The position numbers were made by a program, and so were the translations under genes. 64,000 bases of DNA, from the NCBI RefSeq assembly GCF_000143845.1, contig NC_014363.1:1-64000 (forward strand), written 5' to 3'. The notes under the pieces were generated by a model. It did no database searches. It saw only the letters and a list, made by a program, of their open reading frames with translations, and had not been told where the DNA came from. Positions 7,282-22,543 of the stretch are shown here, piece after piece (within the stretch, counting starts at the first letter, position 1; every line of letters begins with the position of its first letter). The DNA is from Olsenella uli DSM 7084. GTDB taxonomy: Bacteria; Actinomycetota; Coriobacteriia; Coriobacteriales; Atopobiaceae.

Positions 7282-8238
7282 TCAGCCCTTTCCCAGCAGT
7301 CCTGTGGCGTAGTCCGATACCTTTCGGCGGAGGTCTTCGTCATCGACGATGACGCCATCGCCGCAGGCTGCCAGTCGACGGATGAGCCACATGCCTCCGT
7401 AGAACGGGATCCTCGCCCGCGTACGCCCTCCCCCCTCCGCCATGACCTCGAGCGCGGGCCAGCGGAAGAACTCAAGGAGCCTCGGGTCCGTGAACGTGAG
7501 CTCCACCTCGCGTGTTCCCGTGATGCTGCCGTCGCGTCGCGGGCCGTCACCCTGCGTCCCACCCTCTGTGACAGCACTTGTTCCGAGCTTTGTCATACGG
7601 TCGCAGCGGAAGGTCCTCTCGCCCCTTCGGACGAGGTCAAATGCGTCCAGGTACCAAAGCCCCCCATCATGCCTGAGGCCCAGCGGCAACACCAGACGCT
7701 CGCTGGGCTCGCCCGAGACCGAGCGGTAGGCAAAGGAGAGCTCATCCCCGGCGGCGATCGCCTTGGCGCAGGCACAAACGGCGCCATTGGGGTCGTCCGT
7801 CTCCAAGGACTCCAATGACGTCTGCACGCCCGGTCCGGTCACGGGGTTACAGAGGGCTCGCCTGACCTTGTCTGCCAAGACATCGCCTTGTGCCACTCCA
7901 AGCGCGCGCAAGGCGGCTTCCACTGCGATGGTCTCGCTGGTCGTAAGGCGCAGGGCCCGGCCCGCGACCCCACCGAAGCACAGCTCCACCTCCATACCGT
8001 CATCGTCTGCGCCCAGGCACAGGCGGCCCGTCCCCTCCTCGTCGGCGACGTCAAGCAGGAGGTTGAGCAGATGCCGGGCGTGATCCAGGGAGCATCCCAT
8101 GCGGGCCGCGACCACTCCGGCGGAGAGCAGGTCGCCTTCGTGTCTCAGTGCGGAGATGAGCGTCACGAGCTCACGGGCCACCTCGATGCCGCCCCTGCGC
8201 CCCCTCCCGCGTCCAGCGGGACCCTCCCTAACGGCCAT
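7282..8238 (-). CDS. WYL-domain transcriptional regulator, PafC-like
   Basis: A 318-aa protein with an N-terminal helix-turn-helix-like region (RELVTLISALRHEGDLLSAG) and a central WYL domain (LSFAYRS, then the GLWYLDAFDL core near residues 215-225), then a C-terminal WCX-like extension. It overlaps by 11 bases with a second WYL gene directly upstream, the PafB-PafC arrangement of actinobacteria, where the heterodimer activates the mycobacterial DNA-damage response. Whether this pair does the same here is inference. It converges on the DinG-type gene with only about 22 bases between them and no clear terminator. Confidence 0.8.
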   Translation of the reverse strand: MAVREGPAGRGRGRRGGIEVARELVTLISALRHEGDLLSAGVVAARMGCSLDHARHLLNLLLDVADEEGTGRLCLGADDDGMEVELCFGGVAGRALRLTTSETIAVEAALRALGVAQGDVLADKVRRALCNPVTGPGVQTSLESLETDDPNGAVCACAKAIAAGDELSFAYRSVSGEPSERLVLPLGLRHDGGLWYLDAFDLVRRGERTFRCDRMTKLGTSAVTEGGTQGDGPRRDGSITGTREVELTFTDPRLLEFFRWPALEVMAEGGGRTRARIPFYGGMWLIRRLAACGDGVIVDDEDLRRKVSDYATGLLGKG

Positions 8239-9244
8239 GCCGGCTCGCCTCGTCCAGAATGCGCCTGCGCTCCTCTACCAGCTCGGGCGGTCCAAGGGGG
8301 ACGAGACCCACGTCGATTGACCACAGGGCCGCATCTCGTATGTCGGAGACGTCGACTCGCCAGGTCGATCCGTCAGGGGAGAGCGCTCCGTGTGTGGTCA
8401 GCGCCCGCCTCGCCTCCGGCGTCGCCGGGCGGGTGCAGGCGAAGGTCGCATGACCCTCGGTCGCGCCCATCTGGAAGGGGAGGAGCACGAAGTCGCGGAT
8501 GTCAAAATCCTCCGGCACCACATAGCGCTCTTGCGCGCAGGCACGGACCCTGACAAAGCGATCAAGGCGATAGGTCTTGGGCGTCTCGGCGGGCCGACCC
8601 CTCTCTCGATCGTAGCGTACGGCAACGAAATAGGTGTTTCCCCTCAGGCCGAAGCTCCCGTAGAGGGCTAGCAGCCGCTCGCTCTGGCATCCGCGGGCGT
8701 CGGTGTACGTGACCTCGGCGGCCTCCCCACGCTCGAGGCACCCGCGTAGCGTCGCGAGTCGCATGTCCACGCCTTCGCCCGCATGCCCCACCCGCCTGGT
8801 TGCGAGCGTATTGTACGAGGAGTTGATCTTCGCGAGCGCGCGGGCGAGCTCATCTCGATAGGCAAAGGCACCGTCGCTCACAAGACCCGCACACGCAGCG
8901 TCTATGGTCAGAGCCTCGTGTGCGGTGAGCGCGTCACCGTCGGCAAACGAGAGCGTGCGGTCTACGACCCAGGTGGTCTCCCCACCTGCCCTCCGGTCCC
9001 CTCGCAGCGCGATGCCGCAGAGCGCCAGCCTCGCTCGGTCTCGCAGGAAGGTGCGTCGGAAGCTGTCCTCGGAGAGGTGGGGGTAGTAGAGTTCCCGGAT
9101 GCGCCTGGACGTCAGGGCGCCTTGGGCATTCATGAAGGCTGTCGCCAGCGACGCCAGGCGCAGCGCCTGCTCGTCGTCCTTTGTACGACCCTCGACGGAC
9201 TCCCGTGACCCCTTGCCCACACGCCCCTCCCCGCCCACCGCCAC
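8228..9244 (-). CDS. WYL-domain transcriptional regulator, PafB-like
   Basis: A 338-aa protein. It has an N-terminal helix-turn-helix region (LASLATAFMNAQGALTSRRI, residues about 30-49) and a WYL domain in which the signature is modified (GNTYFVAVRYDRERG near the expected position). It is the first gene of a two-gene minus-strand unit with the PafC-like regulator and is divergent from the large M28-like gene, so the promoters of both units share about 140 bases. The GTG at 9244 is the longest start. A GTG eight codons in, preceded by a purine-rich GGGGAGGGG stretch, is an alternative. Binding of single-stranded DNA or nucleotides by WYL domains is family knowledge. Confidence 0.78.
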   Translation of the reverse strand: MAVGGEGRVGKGSRESVEGRTKDDEQALRLASLATAFMNAQGALTSRRIRELYYPHLSEDSFRRTFLRDRARLALCGIALRGDRRAGGETTWVVDRTLSFADGDALTAHEALTIDAACAGLVSDGAFAYRDELARALAKINSSYNTLATRRVGHAGEGVDMRLATLRGCLERGEAAEVTYTDARGCQSERLLALYGSFGLRGNTYFVAVRYDRERGRPAETPKTYRLDRFVRVRACAQERYVVPEDFDIRDFVLLPFQMGATEGHATFACTRPATPEARRALTTHGALSPDGSTWRVDVSDIRDAALWSIDVGLVPLGPPELVEERRRILDEASRHGR

Positions 9245-9305: not shown

Positions 9306-9334
9306 ACGACAACTCGCATGATAAGACGTATACT
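9306..9334 (+). promoter_or_regulatory. Putative promoter of the M28-like gene
   Basis: ACGACA at 9306-9311 and TATACT at 9329-9334 are separated by 17 bases and lie 54 bases before the ATG at 9388. The -10 sits in a GTATACT context that recurs at other genes in this window. The -35 is weak. Confidence 0.45.
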
Positions 9335-9387
9335 CGGACAAATGAACGTCGGAAGGCCCTACTTGCCTTGTGCAAAGGACGTATAGC

Positions 9388-12300
9388 ATGCCAAACTCAC
9401 GCACCTACCTTGACTATCTGAACGAGAAGATAGACATCTCGCCCGCCAACAGCCAGGAGGAGCTGGAGGCCGCGGAGCTCGTCCGGTCACTCATGGACGA
9501 GCACGGCCTCGAGACGACCGTGCAGGACTTCACCGTGCCGGCTGCGGGGGACCTCCCCCACAACGTGCTCTACGTGGTCATGTTCCTGGGTATGCTCCTC
9601 TCGGGCATCCTGGGCAGTGCCGTGGGCCTGGTGGGCCTGCTGCTTGTCATCGCGGCACTAGCCCTGCTTGTGGCCGAGTTCAGCGGTCATGACCTCCTGG
9701 GCAGGCTTGGTCCCGCCGCACGCAGCCAGAACGTGATCGGCGTCCATCGCGCGACAGGCCCCCTCGTCGTCAAGGGTAACCGTCCCATCGTCATAGTCGC
9801 ACACTACGACAGCCCCAACGAGGGACTGCTCTACCAGCCCCAGCTGGCCCGCTATCAGGTCCCCCTGCGCCGTGCGCGCTTTCTCTGCGTCATCGTCGTC
9901 TCTGTGCTCTCCCTGCTCCAGGCCATGCCCTTCCTGCCCACCACGGCCCGTCATGTCCTTTGGGTGCTGGGCATCCTGGCGTCGCTTCCCCTGTTGATAG
10001 TGGGCGTCTCCACGATCTACGCGCGCTTTGCCCCCTGCACCACGGGAGCCAATGACAACAAGGCCTCCATCGCGGCGATGCTCGGCGTCATGGATGCCGT
10101 GCGTCCCGCTGGGGATGAGGCGAAGCGCTATATGGAGCTTCACCCCCATACCGAGCCGGAACCCGAGCCCGTGGTCGAACCCGAGCCCGAGGATTACCCC
10201 GCCGCGCCCCTGCCCGTGTCGGGCCCCCGTCCCGGGCTTGATCTGGCGTCGGAGGAAGATCCTGCTTCCCCCCAGGCGGACGGGGACATCCCGTCTGTTT
10301 CGGATGAAGGTTCGTCCCCCGTCGGGGAGGCGCCGACACACGAACCTCCCGCTGCCCCCGCCCCCATGCCATCGGTGGATCGCGGGGGGCTTGTCGACTG
10401 GGGCGGCGTACGCCGTGGTCCAGAACTCATGCAGAGCCTGAACATCCTTCCGCCCGAGTGCGAGATCGTGTATCAGGAGCCGCCTGTCCCCAAGGTCGAC
10501 CCCGCCACCCTCCCGGAGATCCCCCGGTTCACCGACAAGGACTTCGCCGATGAGCTGAACACGAAGTATGGCCTGGATGGCATCGGTTCCACGGCAGCTC
10601 CGTCGGAGGAGGGGTCGTCCCTCCCCGACGGAGAGCCCCCGTCTCAGACGACGCGACCCGAGCGCCACACGGGCTACGTGCCATCGTTCTTCTCACAGGC
10701 AAAGGGCAGGGCAGAGCATCCCGACACCCGCATCCGCCTGGGGAAGGGTTATGCCGGCAAGCCTGCCCAAGACGCGTTGCCCTCACCGGGACGCGACGAA
10801 TACCCCACCTTCGACGAGGACTACCTTGTCGCCGAGTACGAAGTCATCGAGGATCCCACCAGTTCGCAAGAGGAGCCCTCTTCGCATCCGGACATCGTCA
10901 CGCCCCTCGAGGAGACCATCGCTCCCTCGGGTGCTGCAGATGCCGACGTCGCCGCTGGCGTTGCCGACGCACTGGGGGTCCCCGACGCCACCGGCGCGCC
11001 TGCGGACGCCGCAACGTCTGCCGGTGTGATGGAGCAACCCACCCTCGAGCGGCCAGCGCCTGAGGTGACCAAGCCCTCCGTCCCCATGAATGTCCCCGAG
11101 GTCACGGCGACCACCCCTCCGCAGACGTTCGAGACGGAGTACAACTACTATGAGCCCACCTCGGCCGCCGACACCGTCGTGTCCGAGCCGGTCTCCGATC
11201 AGGTCACGCCTATCGAGGGGTTGCCCACCATCGAAGAGGCCCCCGAGGGCCTGGACGCGGAGGCAACGTCGTCGACAGGCCCCATGTCGCAAGACGCCAA
11301 GGCCAACGATGCCCTTCCCTTGTCTGCGTCCGGGACCGAGCCCACGTCTGGGGTGTCTCCCGCATCCGAGGAAACGCCTCCCGAGGTCCCGGGTGCTCCC
11401 GCATCCGCATCCGGCTTCGTCCCAGCCGTCCGTTCCGCCTGGGGCCGCCTCGTCGGCGGCATCCGCAGGCATACTCTCCCTGCCACCAGCGAGCCCTCGG
11501 CAAGCTCCGAGAATGAGGTCGGGGCGACATCGGGGGAAGCTCCCCTGGCCGAGTGGGAGCCCATCGGGTCACCCGAGCCAACCGAGGCCACCTCGCCCAT
11601 GGCGGCCTCCGACGACGTCGAGGGTGACGACGCGGCCGAGAGAGGCGTGGTGCCTGCGACTGAGTCCGTCGGGCACGGCCGCGCTTCAGATTCCGAGACT
11701 GACCCTGGCTCCGGCGAGGAGCCTGTCGACGAGCCAATGGGGGAGGGGGCCGACGACGGGTCGACCGAGCACGATCCTGCAGCGTCCGACCCCGCCGCCA
11801 CCATCGCGATTTCGGCGGCCACGCTCTCCATCGACGAAGACATTCCCGAGAGCGAGCTCGCCTCCAAGGACGCCACCGGCCTCGACACGCTCTCCGACGA
11901 CCTCCCCTCGTCCCAGGATAGCGCCGATGAGGGAGACCGCCCCGCCGCTGTCGATGACCCCAACTGGGGCACGAGCGAGTTTCGTCCCGCCGAGCCCAAC
12001 CTCGCCCGCCGCGCGGTCCTGTTCGACCTGCCCGACCCGTCCGAAGCCACGAGCGACCCGTTCGTGACGGACCCCGACGCCTCCGGTACCATGCCCCGGG
12101 CCTTTGACAACGTGCTCGTGAGGGGGACCGCCTCCACCAAGCTGCAACCCCGTTACGCAAGGGACAGCCAGCCGCGTGGAACACGCGAGACCATAGGCCT
12201 TCTGACCGGCTCCGAGGTGGGGATGCACTCTCAGGCGGCCCGACCCAAGGCAAGTGACGCCCGCCAGGCAGGCAAGAGGCGCCTCCGCTTCTTCGGCCAC

Positions 12301-13077
12301 AGGGGCGATGCACGGCCCCAGCAGGAATCCCTGAGCGAGTGGCTGGGAGTCGAGGAGGACTACGACGCCAAGAAGGACGGCCGCGCCATCGGCAACTGGG
12401 ACAACTTCGACAAGGCCGATGGGGAGACCAAGGTCGACCCCAGCGAGGGGTCCGGTGAGCCCCCCCGTCGCGGCGACTGGAAGGGTGGCGCCACCACGCG
12501 CTCGGACCTTCATGTGGTGGAGGGGGCCGACCCCACGGCCGAGGTTCCCCCTGACGCGCAGGTGATCGAGGCCCAGTCGCCCGAGGAGATGGAGCAGCTC
12601 CGTGAGGCCATCCTCGGCATGGGTGACGACGAGCTCGTCTCGCACGACGTCTGGTTCGTGGCCCTGGGCGCCTCGAGCCTACGCCGCGCCGGCATCAAGG
12701 AGTTCCTGGCGGGCTTCCGTCGTGACATCCGTGGGTCCTTCCTGGTCAACCTGGACTCCGTCGGGGCGGGTGACGTGACGCTCCTCACGAGCGAGGGCGC
12801 AGGCAAGACGCGCCGCGCCGACCGTCGCATGGTCAGGATGCTCATGGGCATCGCCGATGACCTTCACATTCCCGTGAAGCGCTCGCGCTACGACTGGGCA
12901 TCGACAGACGCCACCCCTGCGATGCAGGCCTCGGTGCGTGCCGTGACGGTCATGGGTATGACCGACGACCGTCTGCCCGCGCTGTCCCACACCGCCGACG
13001 ACACGCCCGAGAATATCGACCAGGGTCAGGTTGCTGCGGTGAGCGACATGCTCTGCGAGCTGATCCGCCGTTCGTAG
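9388..13077 (+). CDS. Large membrane M28-peptidase-like protein with giant acidic insertion
   Basis: About 1229 aa from ATG 9388, which AAAGGA precedes by 8 bases; a GTG at 9370 is less likely. The ends match a zinc aminopeptidase of family M28: AHYDS (His139), TGANDN (Asp223), NLDSVG (Asp1123) and SHTADDT (His1201) are the expected metal ligands. Two paired membrane segments occur: one pair near residues 57-90, the other between the first two ligands near 170-215. From about residue 240 to 1060 there is an acidic, Pro/Glu/Ser/Ala-rich, probably disordered stretch. The conserved catalytic and metal-binding Glu-Glu pair is replaced by Ser-Ser (ALGASSL, 1092-1098), so peptidase activity is doubtful. 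Its role is unknown; the protein probably spans the cytoplasmic membrane. Confidence 0.75.
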   Translation: MPNSRTYLDYLNEKIDISPANSQEELEAAELVRSLMDEHGLETTVQDFTVPAAGDLPHNVLYVVMFLGMLLSGILGSAVGLVGLLLVIAALALLVAEFSGHDLLGRLGPAARSQNVIGVHRATGPLVVKGNRPIVIVAHYDSPNEGLLYQPQLARYQVPLRRARFLCVIVVSVLSLLQAMPFLPTTARHVLWVLGILASLPLLIVGVSTIYARFAPCTTGANDNKASIAAMLGVMDAVRPAGDEAKRYMELHPHTEPEPEPVVEPEPEDYPAAPLPVSGPRPGLDLASEEDPASPQADGDIPSVSDEGSSPVGEAPTHEPPAAPAPMPSVDRGGLVDWGGVRRGPELMQSLNILPPECEIVYQEPPVPKVDPATLPEIPRFTDKDFADELNTKYGLDGIGSTAAPSEEGSSLPDGEPPSQTTRPERHTGYVPSFFSQAKGRAEHPDTRIRLGKGYAGKPAQDALPSPGRDEYPTFDEDYLVAEYEVIEDPTSSQEEPSSHPDIVTPLEETIAPSGAADADVAAGVADALGVPDATGAPADAATSAGVMEQPTLERPAPEVTKPSVPMNVPEVTATTPPQTFETEYNYYEPTSAADTVVSEPVSDQVTPIEGLPTIEEAPEGLDAEATSSTGPMSQDAKANDALPLSASGTEPTSGVSPASEETPPEVPGAPASASGFVPAVRSAWGRLVGGIRRHTLPATSEPSASSENEVGATSGEAPLAEWEPIGSPEPTEATSPMAASDDVEGDDAAERGVVPATESVGHGRASDSETDPGSGEEPVDEPMGEGADDGSTEHDPAASDPAATIAISAATLSIDEDIPESELASKDATGLDTLSDDLPSSQDSADEGDRPAAVDDPNWGTSEFRPAEPNLARRAVLFDLPDPSEATSDPFVTDPDASGTMPRAFDNVLVRGTASTKLQPRYARDSQPRGTRETIGLLTGSEVGMHSQAARPKASDARQAGKRRLRFFGHRGDARPQQESLSEWLGVEEDYDAKKDGRAIGNWDNFDKADGETKVDPSEGSGEPPRRGDWKGGATTRSDLHVVEGADPTAEVPPDAQVIEAQSPEEMEQLREAILGMGDDELVSHDVWFVALGASSLRRAGIKEFLAGFRRDIRGSFLVNLDSVGAGDVTLLTSEGAGKTRRADRRMVRMLMGIADDLHIPVKRSRYDWASTDATPAMQASVRAVTVMGMTDDRLPALSHTADDTPENIDQGQVAAVSDMLCELIRRS

Positions 13078-21302: not shown

Positions 21303-22543
21303 GTGCGACGCAAGATTGATCGGCTTGAGCCATTCTAGAGGGCTATCAGCAAGGCTTACCTTGCTTCCGCTGGAATCTCAATCGATTCGCTTGAGGATAC
21401 TGATAAGCCTTTCATCGCGATTGCGAACAGCTGGAACAAAGTCTGCCCCGGTCACGAACCCCTGCGCCAGCTGGCCCAAGAAGTTAAGAAGGACATTCTC
21501 GAGGTGGGTGGTGAACCAATCGAATTCAACACTATTGCCACGTGTGATGGAATAGCACAGGGCCACTCGGGCATGCGTTACTGTCTACCTCACCGCGATC
21601 TGATAACCGACTCCTGTGAGGCGATGATCGTGGGGGGCGTATTCGACGGAGTCGTATACATGGGGTCATGCGATAAGATTATTCCGTGGATGCTTAATGC
21701 AGCGGTGCGCCTCAATCTCCCTTCTGCGTTGATTACTGCCGGGCTTTGCTACGATGAAATCAAACCCTCCGAATCCAAGGCCTTAAGGGCCGCGTTCTTG
21801 CGTGACGAAGTTACGGAACGTGATGTGATTGAAGGTACGCTTAAGTACTACACAGGTCCCAGCGCCTGCCCCTTCCTCGGAACGGCAAATACCATGGCCT
21901 GTCTGAGTGAGGGGCTGGGTATGATGCTTCCGTATGGGGCACTATTGCCCAGCAGCACAAGCCAGCGCAGATTCAGTGCGCGAAGAACGGGCGCGCGTGT
22001 GGTCGATATGGTTTGGAGGAACATCAAACCCTCTGATATCATGACGCAGGCAGCTATCGACAATGCCGTTAGACCGCTCGCCTTCATAGGCGGCTCGTTC
22101 AATGCGCTCATTCATCTGTCTGCGCTTGTCGCCGAACTCGGACTTAAGTGCACGTGGGCATGGTGGCTGAAATTACGAGCAAGACGCCCGTTGTCTGCAA
22201 CGTTGTTTCCAATGGCAACATCAGCTGCATCAACCTGTATAAGGCTGGCGGCGTTCCCGCAGTGATGAAGACCACAGAGAAGGATCTCGACGTTTCCGTC
22301 TTGACGGTGACGGGTGAGACCCTGCAGGCTAACCTCGATTGCGACGTGTCAATCGACCGTGGCATCATTCGTGTCCGGGATGATCCCACATCTGCTGCGA
22401 ACGGAATTCAGGTGTTGTGCGGTAACGCTAATGGCTTGCATTTCCTAAGGGAGTCTGTTGATAAGCATTGGCGTCTATGGAGTGCCAAGGCGCTTTTACG
22501 GCACTCCTCATCTCGACGTGCGGTTAGCCTTGGCGGAGGCTAA
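21303..22543 (+). pseudogene. Decayed IlvD/Edd-family sugar-acid dehydratase
   Basis: A broken member of the dihydroxyacid/6-phosphogluconate dehydratase family. GTG 21303 with GGGGGAG upstream begins MRRKIDRLEPF, then meets an in-frame TAG at 21336-21338 (codon 12). The same frame continues with family motifs PFIAIANSW, EFNTIATCDGIAQGHSGM and GSCDKIIPWML. Near 22146 one base appears lost: the frame changes and resumes as HVGMVAEIT, INLYKAGGVPAVMK and LTVTGETLQANL. Homology fades after GIQVLCGN near 22430, so roughly 150 C-terminal residues are missing. The usual CDKxxPG reads CDKIIPW, with Trp in place of Gly. At least three lesions make a functional product unlikely. Confidence 0.85.
22479..22507 (+). 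other. Hairpin at the right edge of the sugar-acid block
   Basis: An 8-bp perfect stem (GGAGTGCC at 22479-22486 with GGCACTCC at 22500-22507) lies just past the last recognisable part of the dehydratase pseudogene. There is no T-run, so it may be an old terminator or a junction remnant. Confidence 0.35.

Follow-up and report, generated by a model that had tools for sequence, protein, structure and literature searches.

The first 64,000 nucleotides of contig NC_014363.1 of Olsenella uli DSM 7084 (hereafter the window) contain a gene for a 1229-residue protein that looks like a membrane peptidase of family M28 and raises a simple question: does it still cut peptides and, if not, what has it been kept for? 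The original prediction placed the two halves of an M28 domain at opposite ends of the protein, on either side of a long acidic region, and this layout was confirmed, the linker taking up 819 residues (its boundaries are approximate, being taken from profile matches). The strongest statement that the data allow is that the order Coriobacteriales carries a selected, apparently disabled membrane M28 fold with a motif-bearing, length-variable acidic tether. Beyond this, we hold with moderate confidence that the protein is a membrane-anchored pseudo-peptidase, whose M28 fold was kept as a binding or scaffold module equipped with the tether. Such a binding-scaffold use is the most likely one.

On the window protein, Pfam recognised the C-terminal half alone (PF04389, 30 bits, E 5.4e-7, cut-off 21.3), the match spanning residues 1123-1231 of a 1235-residue frame opened by an upstream GTG. 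The N-terminal half (N-terminal 267 residues) was assigned by homology; it was matched by 56 of 60 relatives and, of the good genomes, by 44 of 45. Except at contig ends and in a few split frames, the orthologues had both halves at opposite ends of one open frame, and since this architecture recurs across the Coriobacteriales, it is not due to chance. ATG 9388 is the likely start codon, because AAAGGA precedes it at 9374-9379 and a conserved Met of the orthologues aligns to it. A first set comprised 24 and 29 loci plus the window, from which 54 N-terminal and 51 C-terminal halves were aligned, the missing C-terminal halves being contig-end truncations. A second set comprised 115 loci, of which 108 carried the two halves in a single frame; loci with halves in different frames were excluded from later full-length counts. 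Of 197 rows, 19 were dropped as identical to another over residues 40-230. The 178 distinct rows fall into Coriobacteriales (119), other orders of Coriobacteriia (35), and other classes of the phylum (24), and the counts below refer to them unless stated otherwise.

The fold was approached with AlphaFold2 models of a short orthologue (L078, 654 residues, 56-row alignment) and of a relative with an intact site (L216, 603 residues, 53 rows). In the L078 model, the predicted local distance difference test score (pLDDT) was >90 in both halves and mostly <50 in the linker. The two halves formed a complete M28 fold, with helices fitting two membrane hairpins, and the linker was disordered. The L216 model gave the same picture. 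Compared with the Bacillus aminopeptidase BSAP (6hc6), the L078 model aligned over 272 residues in a range covering both halves, with a Z of 30.7 and a root mean square deviation of 2.8. Together with the PF04389 match on the window C-terminal half, this places the protein in family M28 as a fold. PDB sequence searches returned weak M28 matches only. The L078 two-half fold resembled M28 aminopeptidases generally (BSAP/YwaD 6hc6, Aneurinibacillus 2ek8, Streptomyces griseus 1cp7, Vibrio 1amp; Z 28.7-30.7). These are soluble, contiguous enzymes with a Glu-Glu pair. The window protein shares their His, Asp, Asp, His ligand positions, but differs from them by two membrane hairpins, the 819-residue insert, and Ser-Ser.

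The six residues proposed earlier for the active site (His139, Asp223, Ser1096, Ser1097, Asp1123, and His1201) were all exact in the numbering from ATG 9388. By analogy with M28 enzymes, we take the Ser1096 position to be that of the general base and the Ser1097 position to be that of a metal ligand. An active M28 enzyme has five metal ligands and a general-base Glu; the window protein has four of the five ligands, with Ser1097 in place of Glu, and Ser1096 at the base position. The original prediction had asked whether the Glu pair was lost across the clade. As a matter of fact, the loss is order-wide: Glu-Glu was present in 0/119 Coriobacteriales rows, in 22/35 rows of the other orders, and in 8/24 rows of the other classes. 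Orthologues with Glu-Glu, which had been named as a possible refutation, do exist, but outside the order only; thus, they date the loss and do not refute it. The base position was Ser in 103 of the 119 Coriobacteriales rows and Glu in nine, the next residue then being other than Glu. When Asp was allowed to stand for Glu, and Glu for Asp at the fourth position, all five metal ligands were found in 17/119 Coriobacteriales, 26/35 other-order, and 7/24 other-class rows, and the catalytic set was complete in 22 of the 35 other-order rows. With duplicates still in, the order had 138 rows, of which 125 retained the first His, 88 the bridging Asp, and 70 the last His. A replacement catalytic Glu, sought as order-specific acidic columns in Coriobacteriales, gave no convincing candidate in the window. 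Of these columns, acidic in the majority of Coriobacteriales and not in the relatives with an intact site, the nearest in sequence (1172 and 1204) varied among clades, and the window protein has Ser at 1172. The other refutation foreseen, a different conserved Glu in the active site, was not evident in the window. With the Glu of the general base gone and, as a rule, the ligand of the second metal as well, the Coriobacteriales protein is apparently catalytically disabled, and M28-type peptide hydrolysis is not expected of it.

The N-terminal-half profile found the gene in 140 of 149 Coriobacteriia genomes and in 122 of the 124 good ones, mostly with one full match each; it is also present in Collinsella. 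In an even sample of the phylum, a single-sequence query matched 53 of 296 genomes. Ratios of nonsynonymous to synonymous substitution rates (dN/dS) were computed for 15 hand-chosen close pairs. For the C-terminal half, dN/dS was 0 in three pairs and 0.026-0.096 in 12, and for the N-terminal half it was 0.015-0.21 in 13 pairs, the outliers being a near-identical pair (0.75, from a handful of changes) and a saturated one. The linker gave 0.10-0.30, mostly above the halves. These low values indicate that both halves are under purifying selection and the fold is maintained, and hence not decaying. Order-wide loss of catalytic residues (0/119 with Glu-Glu, 17/119 with five ligands) in a fold under purifying selection marks a pseudoenzyme, so the pseudo-enzyme proposed at the outset is well supported throughout the order.

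Two membrane segments had been predicted between the first two ligands. They are present, but an earlier hairpin had been missed, and the total is four segments in two hairpins. Over the 119 Coriobacteriales rows, the domain-side flanks contained on average 2.4 Lys/Arg after hairpin 1 and 2.1 before hairpin 2, versus 0.08 and 0.97 in the hairpin loops. The excess of Lys/Arg in the domain-side flanks over the loops suggests a cytoplasmic domain, and both fold halves and the linker would lie on one side of the membrane, probably this one. The flank after hairpin 2 (mean 0.89) adds nothing to this assignment.

The linker of the window protein has 159 Asp/Glu and 57 Lys/Arg, with few and short tandem repeats, and all 119 Coriobacteriales linkers were net acidic. 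Their length ranged from 198 to 1689 residues (median 608), as compared with inserts of 76-356 (median 199) in the other orders and about zero (-6 to 93) in the other classes. The idea of a disordered acidic region of varying length was thus borne out among species by the L078 model, composition, and length. The longest orthologue (L069:238-6681) is a 2148-residue open frame with a linker of ~1689 residues.

Within the linker, a 63-row alignment revealed three conserved islands, M1 to M3 (see the table). They were written as simple regular expressions composed after viewing the alignments, so that their counts describe the set and are no test of it. The M3 core was found in 35/35 other-order rows, in 47/119 Coriobacteriales rows (57/119 by a looser pattern), and in 0/24 other-class rows; M2 was found in 82/119, 0/35, and 0/24, respectively. 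Shuffled linkers of the 154 class rows gave expectations of 0.0 for the M3 core and 0.05 for M2. A genome-wide search for M3 in Olsenella uli returned its own site only. In several Atopobiaceae the first part of M3 was gone and its WKGGA end retained. In the 62 of 119 rows in which M1, M2, and the WxGGA end were all recognised, the M1-M2 distance (73-1489 residues) tracked total linker length (r = 0.96), whereas the stretch separating M2 and the WxGGA end (29-191) was independent of it (r = -0.01). The ends of the linker are therefore fixed, M1 near the N-terminal half and M2 and M3 near the C-terminal half, and its middle is adjustable. In the L216 model, the M3-bearing stretch had block means of 57-77, compatible with M3 possibly becoming ordered upon binding. 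In Thermophilibacter provencensis (L135:7038-7144), the M28 frame breaks within the linker at a perfect inverted repeat of >20 bp, either an assembly artefact or a real fold-back.

How did this state arise? Two sets of relatives are informative. Compact membrane M28 proteins of other classes (L089-L105, L119-L125) have the same membrane layout and, in 8/24, Glu-Glu, but lack the insert, with a linker near zero and no M3 (0/24). Those of the other Coriobacteriia orders (L086-L088, L216-L250) share the membrane hairpins and M3 (35/35), but their insert is short and 22/35 have the complete catalytic set. Since other-order rows with a complete site carry the M3-bearing insert, the insert appears older than the Coriobacteriales site loss, and the simplest reading is that it arose with M3 in an intact-site protein, and that Coriobacteriales lost this site afterwards. 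A rapidly built tree of 97 of the 178 rows, with hand-picked Coriobacteriales and an uncertain root, put the Coriobacteriales on one side of a branch (support 99) and required at least three changes of the Glu-Glu state. It also placed five compact relatives within the other orders on a long branch, where the order of gain and loss is unsure. A few lineages outside Coriobacteriales apparently lost the site as well: L233-L237, L248, and L249, and, with Lys-Glu, L086-L088 and L242. Two compact membrane M28 clades of other classes (L090, L093, L096-L105, L124, L125) likewise lack Glu-Glu, so site loss is not unique to Coriobacteriales. Family members thus fall into a natural series of four states, compact or insert-bearing, each with the site either intact or lost. 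How an enzyme becomes a binding module, and how disorder grows inside a folded domain, can be tested directly on this series.

We propose the following scenario. Two hairpins would hold the M28 fold at the membrane, with the halves and linker on one side, probably the cytoplasmic one. In Coriobacteriales, peptide hydrolysis by the M28 route would have ceased with the loss of the general-base Glu and, usually, of the second-metal ligand, and the fold would have survived as a binding module. What had been a loop joining the halves would have become a disordered, acidic tether, in which fixed motifs flank a middle able to expand, and this tether may recruit partners. A scaffold would bind two or more partners through linear motifs, and the conserved M1 to M3 are candidates for such a role. 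Transferrin receptor 1, an M28B relative, offers a precedent, since it is non-catalytic and keeps the M28 fold as a membrane-anchored binding module. Its structures matched the L078 model (7zqs, 1de4; Z ~25-26). This receptor, a eukaryotic protein, is anchored by one membrane segment, exposes its fold outside the cell, and has no comparable insert between the halves. We also entertain, tentatively and with more doubt than belief, a narrower version, in which a core protein of the whole order, a membrane-bound pseudo-exopeptidase, recognises protein or peptide ends but leaves them uncut, and organises a membrane complex through the adjustable tether with its fixed end motifs. If true, bacteria would have their own equivalent of the dead M28 receptors of animals, alongside close relatives in which the site is still intact. 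Several points weigh against a pseudo-peptidase scaffold. The window protein keeps His, Asp, Asp, and His, which might suffice to hold one metal ion; many Atopobiaceae lack part of M3, which is thus not indispensable; the models are of L078 and L216 and stand in for the window protein; and the topology comes from a simple charge count.

Could the protein still be an enzyme with a remodelled site, in which, for example, His139, Asp223, and Asp1123 hold one metal ion, or the near-invariant Ser at the base position serves the mechanism? The conservation of both halves, the frequency of Ser at the base position, and the 17 rows that keep all five ligands would fit. Yet no ligand is kept throughout the order, the order-specific acidic columns offer no evident replacement base, and a Ser at a helix start may readily be explained as an N-cap, so we give this possibility little credence. 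Unlikely, although deserving more weight, is that the fold is functional and the acidic linker a neutral filler that changes size by replication slippage. The wide range of lengths, EPEP-type repeats in some linkers, and a linker dN/dS mostly above that of the halves point that way; on the other hand, this dN/dS is well under 1, every Coriobacteriales linker is net acidic, and the three motifs keep their order, with variation confined to the middle.

A link to potassium homeostasis, with the protein as a membrane platform for TrkA, was suggested by deeper lineages, in which one or two trkA genes follow the M28 gene (15 of the 72 loci listed: L041, L043, L048-L051, L054-L056, L221-L223, L228, L235, L245), the L041 gene being TrkA_N by Pfam. 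However, no trkA lay alongside at the scanned Atopobiaceae and Coriobacteriaceae loci, nor by eye among the window neighbours, and the adjacency may be chance retention; we regard this link as very improbable. As for a decaying pseudogene or a chimeric open frame, the halves do lie in different frames at a few loci (L059, L067/L130, L135), but L059 has a scaffold gap, the L135 break falls at the perfect inverted repeat, and that of L130 lies near EPEP repeats. Strong selection on the halves and the near-universal presence of the gene refute this explanation for practical purposes. The membrane-anchored pseudo-peptidase with a tether is thus the reading that we retain. A literature search, within the papers accessible to it, returned no description of this protein. 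The gene is near-universal in a class of gut and oral bacteria, and is labelled by Pfam at best as a peptidase, whereas Coriobacteriales (Olsenella, Collinsella, and relatives) have lost the catalytic residues. Metabolic models of these bacteria would be led astray by an annotation that implies aminopeptidase activity.

Features of the M28 locus in the window, in order of position.
Feature	Coordinates	Strand	Basis or remark
Second WYL-domain regulator; PafC helix-turn-helix match below cut-off	7282..8238	-	Pfam
Divergent WYL-domain regulator, PafB-like position	8228..9244	-	Pfam PF13280, synteny
Promoter-like site, weak, consensus match only (1 found vs 0.4 expected)	9306..9334	+	consensus scan
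Alternative start GTG	9370	+	adds six residues (1235-residue frame)
Coding sequence, probable membrane M28 pseudo-peptidase, 1229 residues	9388..13077	+	open frame, Pfam, orthologues
N-terminal half of M28 fold, including both membrane hairpins	9388..10170	+	profile, alignment, model of orthologue L078
Membrane hairpin 1, ~residues 56-98, before first ligand	9553..9681	+	hydrophobicity; helices 54-73, 77-100 in L078 model
His139, metal-ligand position, AHYD motif	9802..9804	+	alignment
Membrane hairpin 2, ~residues 164-211	9877..10020	+	hydrophobicity; helices 153-178, 186-215 in L078 model
Asp223, bridging-ligand position, GANDN motif	10054..10056	+	alignment
Acidic linker, 819 residues, disordered in modelled orthologue	10171..12627	+	composition, model of L078
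Motif M1, RxG...LxILPxxCxIxY, residues 341-370	10408..10497	+	alignment
Motif M2, ARRAxLFDLPDP...DPF, residues 856-892	11953..12063	+	alignment
Motif M3, SxWLGVxxDxDAKxxGxxIGxWDNF...WKGGAT, residues 982-1037	12331..12498	+	alignment
C-terminal half of M28 fold	12628..13074	+	Pfam PF04389, alignment, model of L078
Ser1096-Ser1097 replacing catalytic Glu-Glu pair	12673..12678	+	alignment
Asp1123, metal-ligand position	12754..12756	+	alignment
His1201, metal-ligand position	12988..12990	+	alignment

In the window, the M28 gene is divergent from two WYL genes and lies behind a gene resembling dinG and before one resembling M29 aminopeptidases; the WYL genes were identified by Pfam, and the other two assignments are our own. 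Among 67 loci including the window, the first WYL gene was present within the fetched stretch in 39, dinG in 38, and the M29-like gene in 21. In deeper lineages, some with an intact site, the fullest order was WYL, WYL (opposite strand), a single-pass membrane protein, the M28 gene, and one or two trkA; most of these loci showed part of this order only. The single-pass protein, an uncharacterised coiled-coil protein whose N-terminal part is disordered and whose outer part is helical, is encoded upstream of the M28 gene in many members of the class, at L041:1743-3269, L050:4937-6223, and 12 other loci. Seven copies searched matched no Pfam family at cut-off, and a search for this upstream partner gene in the Olsenella uli genome gave 0 matches.

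DNA-damage control through the divergent WYL pair was considered and dropped. The P1 DNA-damage promoter consensus is published (PMC5656591); it occurred upstream of 1 of 116 orthologues versus 11 of 2320 random stretches, and the full consensus was not found upstream of the window M28 gene.

Two further observations concern the rest of the window. Its start (11-1709) carries what we presume to be ParA- and ParB-like genes, which suggests that the M28 gene lies near the replication origin. At 21339-22543 on the forward strand, within a sugar-acid catabolic cluster, a dehydratase that we take to be IlvD/Edd-like is split over overlapping frames (21339-22265 and 22148-22543) and is probably a frameshifted pseudogene.

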